Below are positions 30,514 through 33,222 of a DNA stretch of 35,246 nt, one piece after another. Source of the DNA: Dehalococcoidia bacterium (GTDB taxonomy: Bacteria > Chloroflexota > Dehalococcoidia > Lucifugimonadales > Lucifugimonadaceae); NCBI GenBank assembly GCA_014239685.1, contig JAAZYK010000006.1:1-35246 (forward strand), read 5' to 3'. How positions within the stretch are numbered: the stretch's first letter is position 1; the number at the start of each line of letters is the position of its first letter. A program made the position numbers and the translations under genes. The notes under the pieces were generated by a model. That model worked only from the letters and a program-made list of their open reading frames with translations, was not told the origin of the DNA and made no database searches.

Positions 30514-31965
30514 ATGTCGATGGATACACACGCCGAATTTCGGACCTCTGAGCGGGAGACTCTGGCCATACGGCTGGCTGTGATAGCCGGCGCGCTTTTG
30601 TTCGGGCTAATGACCGGAGCCGACCTTATAGGCGTGCTGGTACTTGCGGTCGTATTTACTTCATACACGGTCCTGCTGCAGTTCATCCTCCTTTCGCGGT
30701 TCCACTCAGACGGATGGATCTACGGCATGATGGGCGCCGATCTCCTCTTCACTGGAGGTGCAACCGCCATCCTCGGGCTGCCTGGCCCGGCCATCGCGAT
30801 ACCGGCCCTGTTTGCCGCCCAGTACGCCCTGTTCCTCGGATATCGGGGCGCGACCATCTCGGCCGTCCTTGGAATTACCGCCGCACTAGGCGGAGGAATA
30901 ATCGCTGGTGGCATTACTGTAGACGCAATATCAGCCACCATACCGGTCATCTCCGGGGTCGCTGCCTTGTCCGGATATATTGCTTCGAGCCGATTTTCTG
31001 AACGTTCCGCACGTCGGGAGGTACAACTGGGCAATGATTCTGATGCCCGAGCAGCGAGGTTGCTCGATGGACTCCGGCCGATTTCTTCTGCCAACGATGA
31101 GACCACTGCGCTAGAAGCGTTCGCCCGGTCCATACTGACCATCACCGGGTTCGACGCGGTCGTGGTTTACACCCACAGGGGTGGGCTGGGACTACAACAA
31201 CGCGTGCTTCTCAAACGAGATGGGGAGGACGACACAATCAACGATTCAACGGGTGCTTCCGAAGAGTCGATAAACGGCGAATCCGTTGCCGCCCGTACTG
31301 TGGCACAGGGTGTCGCGCTTGCGCTGGGAATCGGCGGCCGGGCTTCGGAAGACATGCCCAGTTGGGCGATCCAGATGGGGTACCAGTCTGGAGTTGTCGC
31401 TCCAATGATCGTCGGGCATATCCCAACTGGTGTTGCGTTCGGGCTGTGCCGAAACGAAAACTCTTTGACACTGGACCAAATCGACCAGATGGAACGATTC
31501 GTCTCGTTGTCGGCCCGTCTGGTGGCGGCGCACAACTCCAGGACTCAGCCAGCCGCACGCGACCGGCTTTCACTTGAATTGGACGCCGCAGGAAGGACCG
31601 AACTCGGCGAGTCTCGACCGATCATCAAAATGGACGGACTGACGTTAGATCCTGCGACGGATCGATCTTCAGTGGTCGGCGTGCCTGTTTCGCTCTCCCG
31701 TTCGGAGTTCGACCTTCTCTATGCTCTTGCAGGAACCCCGGGACAGGTGATGGATCCGGGGTTACTCATAGAATCGGCGTTCGGCGACGCACCGGACGGC
31801 GGACAACGGGCCGTAGACACCACCCTCTATAGATTGAGGCGCAAATTGTCGCGAGCGCCTAAGGGCGAAGACTTAATCCACACGATCCGCGGCAAGGGAT
31901 ATCTTCTGGTGCCACCATCAACTGAGAAGGTCCCCGACGATATCTCAAACGCTGTCTCCGCCTGA
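30514..31965 (+). CDS. Membrane-anchored TM-GAF-winged-helix (OmpR/PhoB-type) putative transcriptional regulator
   Basis: About 6 hydrophobic helices (aa 18-165); GAF-like middle region; C-terminal VSLSRSEFDLLYALAGTPGQVMDPGLLIESAFG...RAVDTTLYRLRRKLSR...IHTIRGKGYLLV. Confidence 0.82.
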   Translation: MSMDTHAEFRTSERETLAIRLAVIAGALLFGLMTGADLIGVLVLAVVFTSYTVLLQFILLSRFHSDGWIYGMMGADLLFTGGATAILGLPGPAIAIPALFAAQYALFLGYRGATISAVLGITAALGGGIIAGGITVDAISATIPVISGVAALSGYIASSRFSERSARREVQLGNDSDARAARLLDGLRPISSANDETTALEAFARSILTITGFDAVVVYTHRGGLGLQQRVLLKRDGEDDTINDSTGASEESINGESVAARTVAQGVALALGIGGRASEDMPSWAIQMGYQSGVVAPMIVGHIPTGVAFGLCRNENSLTLDQIDQMERFVSLSARLVAAHNSRTQPAARDRLSLELDAAGRTELGESRPIIKMDGLTLDPATDRSSVVGVPVSLSRSEFDLLYALAGTPGQVMDPGLLIESAFGDAPDGGQRAVDTTLYRLRRKLSRAPKGEDLIHTIRGKGYLLVPPSTEKVPDDISNAVSA

Positions 31966-32213
31966 AGATAACCAAGCGGCCCATACGGGAGGACGGCTAG
32001 CTCCTAACTGAAGGCAGCAGTGGTGTCGCGAGCGTCGCGAAGTCGTCGCCGATCCTCGGCCGATTCGTCGATCGACTCCGCCATAGAGTTCTCACTCTCA
32101 ATTTCACCGCCCTTGGTGACAACTTAGCAAGTCGTGATCAATTTGGTCCGTAATTTGAGACCTGTATCTGCGGGCATTGGAACTAAACGTTGCGGCCGGT
32201 ACCGATAACGAAG

Positions 32214-32354
32214 ACGAGCGATCGGGTCAGCGCCGGGGGGCGTTACTGATCCCAATCGCTCGTTATACGTCCGTGCCCATCAAGGGGGGCTGATGGTCGG
32301 TGGCGCACTGCCTGCTGGAATAATTCCCAACAGGCCGGTGAAGGGGGTTCACCG
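32214..32354. ncRNA. Candidate structured non-coding RNA / RNA element with multiple hairpins; strand undetermined
   Basis: Hairpins: 32214-32263 (9+7+4 bp, G6 near the apex), 32277-32296 (CCATCA/TGATGG, G6 loop), 32311-32334 (CCTG..GGAA/TTCC..CAGG), 32336-32354 (CGGTGAA/TTCACCG, G5 loop). Lies in a gap of about 520 bp. Confidence 0.5.
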
Positions 32355-32484
32355 AATTATTGAACGGTAGCACGTTTGTTCTAATACCTGCCCGCAACAT
32401 CTATTACGAGTTTTGGAACAATTGTGCTAATTTTCGAATTCCAGACTTTGAGATACCTAAACCGTTTCCGCGAGCAATCACCTC

Positions 32485-33222
32485 ATGCCAGCTAGCAAAA
32501 GACCCTTCCACCGCGCCAGCGACAATCTCATGACATATCGACTTAAGTGGGCTGCATGGGAGTGGCTGTACAGCGAGGCAAAATGCCGAGCCATCGGTTT
32601 CGAGGTTCGACTGGAAGGCCCTGGCGGCCGCGTTGTAGATGTCGTTGGAGTCGGGCCGGATAATCGCGTTTACGCTATCGAGGTGAAAGCGTCGCGGGGC
32701 GACAAGGCCCGCGATGATCACGATATCGACGATCTGAAGCGCCTTCAATCTCGAGTCCCCGTGATGGATAAAACGGTTCAGTTTACGGTCGGGGTTTTGG
32801 AGGCGGCCGCAGAGTACGCGGTGTCGTCTGGTGTCAAAAAACTTGGATCTGATCCGGCTTATCGCCAGGCGCTATCTGATCTTGATAACCGAACGGAGAA
32901 ACGGAACGCTTACGCAAAACGTGTGGCCAACTTCAGTACCAAGTTCCGGGACCCCGGTTTCCTGAGCACCGCCCATTGCCACTACCTCATGGCTCCTGCC
33001 GGGATGATACGGCGTGACGAGTTACCGCCGTTCTGGGGTCTTCTTGACGGAACGCCACGAGTTGTTATCGAAGCGCCGGTAAAACAGGTCGCAGACGCGA
33101 CAACACACGTACTCCGTAACATAGCGCGATCGAACTCGACGACGATGATGACCGAATACGGTGTAATCAGATCAAAGGGACAGACAATGTTTCCAGACCA
33201 CGTAAGGCCGGTTAATGCGTGA
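32485..33222 (+). CDS. PD-(D/E)XK nuclease-like protein (MmcB-like core plus extra C-terminal region)
   Basis: Core VVDVVGVGPDNRVYAIEVKASRGD fits a D-x(n)-ExK active site; the remaining sequence is not recognised. Confidence 0.6.
   Translation: MPASKRPFHRASDNLMTYRLKWAAWEWLYSEAKCRAIGFEVRLEGPGGRVVDVVGVGPDNRVYAIEVKASRGDKARDDHDIDDLKRLQSRVPVMDKTVQFTVGVLEAAAEYAVSSGVKKLGSDPAYRQALSDLDNRTEKRNAYAKRVANFSTKFRDPGFLSTAHCHYLMAPAGMIRRDELPPFWGLLDGTPRVVIEAPVKQVADATTHVLRNIARSNSTTMMTEYGVIRSKGQTMFPDHVRPVNA

Follow-up and report, generated by a model that had tools for sequence, protein, structure and literature searches.

What do the closely spaced hairpins between a membrane/GAF-like gene and a nuclease-type gene represent: an RNA, and if so, one read from which strand, under whose control and to what end? 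The locus lies in a window, here the whole 35,246-nt stretch of DNA that was analysed, whose host is an uncultured marine bacterium, represented by a fragmented SAR202-type Dehalococcoidia/Chloroflexota MAG. The two genes and the elements of the predicted small RNA (sRNA) between them are:

30514 to 31965, plus strand: membrane/GAF-like protein with a winged helix (Trans_reg_C) at its C-terminus, in convergent orientation to the sRNA
32203 to 32367, minus strand: sRNA region and covariance model R1 (from the alignment, the R1 model and fold z-scores)
32204 to 32213, minus strand: T-rich tail after P4, CTTCGTTATC in the window (from the sequence)
32214 to 32263, minus strand: P4, long 3′ hairpin with about 18 bp and a C-run in its loop, candidate intrinsic terminator
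32269 to 32308, minus strand: P3, 5-bp closing stem around a C-run-loop hairpin (CCATCA-GCCCCCCT-TGATGG)
32310 to 32335, minus strand: P2, hairpin whose loop has no C-run, two-sided changes in 6 of 9 pairs
32336 to 32354, minus strand: P1, 5′ hairpin with a C-run loop, CGGTGAA-CCCCC-TTCACCG
32485 to 33222, plus strand: MmcB-like PD-(D/E)XK nuclease-type protein of 245 aa, divergent to the sRNA (structural match 3dnx)

All four hairpins of the original prediction are present where it had placed them (32214–32263, 32277–32296, about 32310–32335 and 32336–32354), and three of their apices carry the runs of 5–6 G on the plus strand that it had described, equivalent to C-runs on the minus strand. 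The outer stem of P3 had been absent from that description. It wraps around 32277–32296 by pairing minus-strand positions 32308–32304 with 32273–32269, and reads GUGCG/CGGAC in the window compared to GUCCG/CGGAC in the genus. P4, the first hairpin of the original prediction, resembles a terminator by its sequence, and the tail that follows it is T-rich in most homologues (TTTTTATTGG, TTTCTTTTTC) and weak in the window. A generic consensus scan of the region for promoters and terminators recognised neither element and did not score the P4 tail. The Infernal/Rfam check that had been suggested, run on the whole window, returned no family at its gathering score.

The four-hairpin architecture is found at the same locus in the window and in seven other genomes of the genus (8/8), with stem sequences that drift. 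In the alignment of eight sequences, three of which are close relatives, 15 of the 39 pairs show two-sided changes, and pairing holds in 93% of cells. None of 500 shuffles matched the alignment on cells paired, on two-sided changes or on covariation score; for further pair types, 21 of 500 were as high. When the partner was slid by 1–3 columns as a control, pairing fell to 26–48%. The covariation is carried by P2 and by P4, the latter with two-sided changes in 8 of its 18 pairs. The 6-bp core of P1 (CGGUGA/UCACCG) shows no change in 8/8 genus genomes; as this core and the outer stem of P3 are nearly invariant, they neither support nor refute the structure by themselves. Since compensatory base changes exceed the controls, we conclude that the locus holds a conserved structured RNA. 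The earlier proposal, a new regulatory RNA that is structured and whose loops are functional, is supported by the covariation, by C/G-run loops on drifting stems and by the lack of an Rfam match, and none of the outcomes named as speaking against it (an Rfam hit, missing covariation, homologous loci devoid of G-run loops) was seen.

R1, the covariance model built for the minus-strand RNA, identifies one full-length copy in each of the eight genus genomes, at 125–156 bits. In the family's 68 remaining genomes it picks out no more than two sites, both with weak scores (27.0 and 18.5 bits). A match of 27 bits in G062 appears to be coding sequence and was not counted, nor were borderline matches of 19 bits in G103 and G145, from a sample of the order. 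Opposite-strand matches inside the genus are a shadow of the palindromic P4, and a 26-nt second copy in the host's own genome (C96) is a chance match that falls within the coding sequence of a transporter-like gene. Given a single copy per genome at one locus, we reject a mobile or repetitive element, and a small ORF is unlikely, as no frame is consistently open across the region and indels do not come in threes.

At the orthologous place in two sister lineages (L029 and L030), R1 scores only 4–6 bits. By eye, a long P4-like hairpin can be recognised there, some 180–320 bp before the nuclease gene; it shows a G-run when read on the plus strand (a C-run on the minus strand), is accompanied by a GTCCG element and may be a diverged form of the RNA. 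A GAACN4GT[TG]C box was sought within 1 kb upstream in both lineages and not found. In L028, at about 2400–2800, short inverted repeats of the type CCCTCTCCC...GGGAGA resemble a dispersed intergenic repeat.

The original prediction left the strand open and described the hairpins on the plus strand; the evidence from z-scores, wobbles and a promoter block favours the minus strand. Folding of the 181-nt region gives z = −3.4 on the plus strand and z = −6.9 on the minus strand, and none of 200 dinucleotide shuffles was as stable on either strand. The minus-strand z-score is the better one in 8/8 genus genomes (−4.0 to −8.4, compared to −1.8 to −4.6), and the minus-strand reading yields 20 G-U wobbles versus 10 A-C cells. 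A promoter-like block ends 13–14 nt before P1 in 8/8 genomes. Most likely, the RNA is read from the minus strand, in a layout that would be that of an sRNA gene with its own promoter; the transcript is predicted to start at about 32357 (± 3) and to end at about 32205. The predicted promoter elements on its 5′ side are:

32364 to 32369, minus strand: predicted −10 element TANNNT (TACCGT) with a TGC extension, overlapping the box (8/8, also at recA; by sequence comparison)
32368 to 32384, minus strand: LexA/SOS-type box TTAGAACAAACGTGCTA of the sRNA promoter, the same in 8/8 genus genomes
32413 to 32429, plus strand: LexA/SOS-type box TTGGAACAATTGTGCTA, the second of the two, oriented towards the nuclease gene and at constant spacing from the first in 8/8
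32428 to 32433, plus strand: predicted −10 element TAATTT of the nuclease-side promoter (from the sequence)

Because the next plus-strand gene is the nuclease gene, the hairpins could instead belong to a plus-strand RNA with G-run loops: either to the nuclease mRNA, as a long structured leader at its 5′ end, or to the mRNA of the GAF-like, winged-helix gene, in its 3′ region. Plus-strand folds are likewise more stable than shuffles, and in several homologues the raw plus-strand energies are near or below the minus-strand ones. However, the z-scores and the wobble balance point the other way, and so does the geometry: the distance from box to P1 is fixed and the spacing between the two boxes constant (8/8), whereas the second box is anywhere from 51 to 255 nt away from the nuclease gene. 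Moreover, since both promoter-like boxes separate the hairpins from that gene, the gene's own promoter would leave the hairpins off its mRNA. We therefore consider a plus-strand RNA improbable.

On the minus strand, the loops are C-runs and not G-runs. At least five C are present in 22 of the 24 loops of P1, P3 and P4, against a background of 0.4–1.7% of stretches of 10–30 nt; the two without a C5 run are P1 of L024 and P1 of L023. The loops of P3 and P4 hold C5–C8 in 8/8 homologues, and P2 has no C-run in any of the eight members. Of the two examples that the original prediction gave for loop function, pairing of C-rich loops with Shine-Dalgarno sequences consequently fits better, and G-rich loops sequestering another RNA fit worse. 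It might be argued that P4 is a mere bidirectional terminator between convergent units and the other hairpins incidental, as P4 lies close behind the stop codon of the GAF-like, winged-helix gene in compact genomes and a P4-like hairpin occupies the same place in L029 and L030. This is very improbable, given that P1–P3 are equally conserved, with invariant cores and with covariation in P2, and given the C-run loops and the fixed promoter geometry.

The conserved block before the minus-strand RNA consists of TTAGAACAAACGTGCTA followed by NNNT. It includes TTAGAACAAACGTGCTANNNT, near-identical to the recA promoter in the same genus, with two central positions differing between the sRNA box and the recA box; a −35 element is not recognisable. 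The second box is located 48 nt from the first. The original prediction had missed what limits the possible function most, namely both boxes, the recA-like LexA/SOS one at the promoter and the divergent one facing the nuclease gene, while its hairpins stand. The recA promoters (L107–L112) carry TTAGAACATCCGTGCTANNNT in 6/6 readable genus members, the lexA promoters (L049, L051–L055) carry GAACATTAGTGC, a close form of the box, in 6/6 members, and a palindromic form, TTAGAACANNNGTTCTA, is found at DUF72/IMS (impB-type, Y-family polymerase) operons (L126, L137, L141, L142, L145 and L146). Allowing at most one mismatch, there are 35 box sites in the 8 genomes, compared to 3 for a reversed control. 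As a genus-wide pattern, the putative LexA box TTAGAACANNNGTGCTA/GTTCTA is clearly seen at recA, at the Y-family polymerase operon and at the sRNA/MmcB locus, and in a shorter form at lexA. The Caulobacter LexA box differs in sequence from the box of this SAR202 genus. The box at the sRNA promoter is probably a LexA/SOS box.

Relatives of the 245-aa nuclease gene that the second box faces were found across Dehalococcoidia. Searches of the protein against Pfam and NCBIfam gave no match. Its AlphaFold model (pLDDT 84) has a single significant structural match, 3dnx/SPO1766 (E 3.9e-5, TM 0.69 by target), which we take to be an MmcB-like protein, and the conserved residues D52...E66-x-K68 fit a PD-(D/E)XK nuclease. 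This MmcB-like family is widespread in Dehalococcoidia, where the 3dnx fold alone was recognised. On the other flank, the GAF-like gene adjoins the RNA locus in six genus loci (those with enough upstream sequence); in the window, its winged helix is OmpR-type and sits at the C-terminus of a membrane protein.

As a test of SOS regulon membership, we looked for a LexA-type box in the promoter that is common to lexA and recA of the genus, and such a box is present. This strongly suggests membership in the LexA regulon for both the sRNA and the nuclease gene. The identity of the boxes is read from sequence and they are unusually invariant (8/8 identical), so they might belong to another regulator, with the sRNA outside SOS control. 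The near-identical box at recA, the close form at lexA, the palindromic form at the Y-family polymerase operon and the MmcB-like nature of the divergent gene all argue against such a regulator, which we regard as about as improbable as a plus-strand RNA.

We consider it rather likely, from the sequence and by analogy, that the locus encodes a LexA-controlled minus-strand sRNA of ∼150 nt whose three C-rich loops would block G-rich ribosome-binding sites in the SOS response. For its transcription, LexA binding, SOS induction and targets, we infer the following course. The gene would run 5′ to 3′ from P1 (C-loop) through P2, P3 (C-loop) and the terminator-like P4 (C-loop) to the T-rich tail, behind a promoter that would overlap a recA-type box, on which LexA would keep the sRNA off until DNA damage. 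RecA-stimulated cleavage of LexA would then release both divergent promoters and yield nuclease and sRNA together, co-induced with recA, lexA and the Y-family (impB-type) polymerase operon. The single-stranded C5–C8 loops would pair with G-rich ribosome-binding sites and so block translation of target mRNAs during the SOS response.

The C-runs of a minus-strand sRNA could also serve something other than pairing with ribosome-binding sites, such as a C-rich-binding protein or the sequestering of another RNA. No obvious G-rich partner is apparent in the SOS regulon; ftsZ leaders, inspected as a target by analogy with DinR (see below), show no conserved G-run. However, in 6C/B11, the best-studied C-loop RNA of such a shape, the loops of the mycobacterial RNA pair with G tracts at or near ribosome-binding sites, and either C-loop of B11 on its own suffices for repression of a six-G leader (PMC10470900). 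Another role for the C-runs thus seems unlikely, if less so than the other alternatives, and we retain pairing with ribosome-binding sites.

The 6C RNA is Rfam family RF01066, known as B11 in mycobacteria, with a gathering score of 47 bits. Like 6C, the sRNA has adjacent hairpins with C-run loops, the last of them long and rich in G+C, with U-rich sequence behind it in most homologues, and its P3 and P4 have the about six C per hairpin loop that are looked for in 6C. In contrast, 6C consists of two hairpins in about 75–100 nt with two C-loops and is found in Actinobacteria, whereas the sRNA has four conserved hairpins in about 150 nt, three C-loops and a promoter with a recA-type LexA box, in Chloroflexota. 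The best RF01066 match among the eight genomes aligns P3 and P4 of L098 with the entire model, at 31.3 bits and with an E value of 0.035 for that genome, followed by 21.2 bits for L097; the window copy gave no match at E ≤ 10. The gathering score was not reached anywhere, and the C. glutamicum genome, used as a control, likewise gave only a sub-threshold match. Over the eight genomes, the 6C match is not significant alone and does not separate descent from convergence. The sub-gathering scores (best 31.3 versus 47 bits) do not show the sRNA to be a member of 6C, and in view of its four hairpins, its three C-loops and the other phylum, it should not be filed as 6C. By analogy, it plausibly works like 6C. 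In C. glutamicum, mitomycin C is reported to raise the level of 6C RNA about two-fold (Pahlke 2016, as cited in PMC6789036).

The Streptomyces sRNA Scr3202 (RF02833) shares with the present RNA a GUCC/GGAC-type stem around a C-run, which closes its first hairpin, followed by a long hairpin. Over its full model, L098 scores 24.5 bits and L097 22.0 bits, against a gathering score of 52, and the window copy has no match. DinR of Klebsiella is controlled by LexA and targets translation starts in trans in the SOS response, as is predicted for the sRNA; DinR arises by processing from the dinI 3′ UTR, depends on Hfq and represses ftsZ (PMC10907235). The sRNA differs from DinR in having a predicted promoter of its own, another structure and no visible complementarity to ftsZ. 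In the Caulobacter SOS regulon, an MmcB-like PD-(D/E)XK nuclease lies behind an SOS box, as is predicted here; in the available part of that account, MmcB is SOS-regulated and acts against cross-links, and a divergent C-loop sRNA is not mentioned (PMC9578287).

The predicted sRNA gene is previously undescribed. Few stand-alone sRNAs are known to be controlled directly by LexA: apart from dinIR, the DinR paper reports none in its Klebsiella data, and it otherwise cites toxin-antitoxin regulators (PMC10907235). A limited literature search retrieved no study on regulatory RNAs or on the SOS regulon of SAR202, a major deep-ocean lineage. Tentatively, and at somewhat less than even odds, the RNA may represent a new family of LexA-controlled, stand-alone, trans-acting sRNAs of Chloroflexota that would have reached the same solution as 6C, convergently or by deep descent. 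If true, the DNA-damage response of bacteria would include C-loop RNAs as an arm that is either ancient or recurrent. A recA-type promoter on a C-loop RNA would put post-transcriptional repression into the SOS response of an uncultured lineage and, together with the link between 6C and SOS in Corynebacterium, would make it testable whether C-loop RNAs are a general device of the response to DNA damage.
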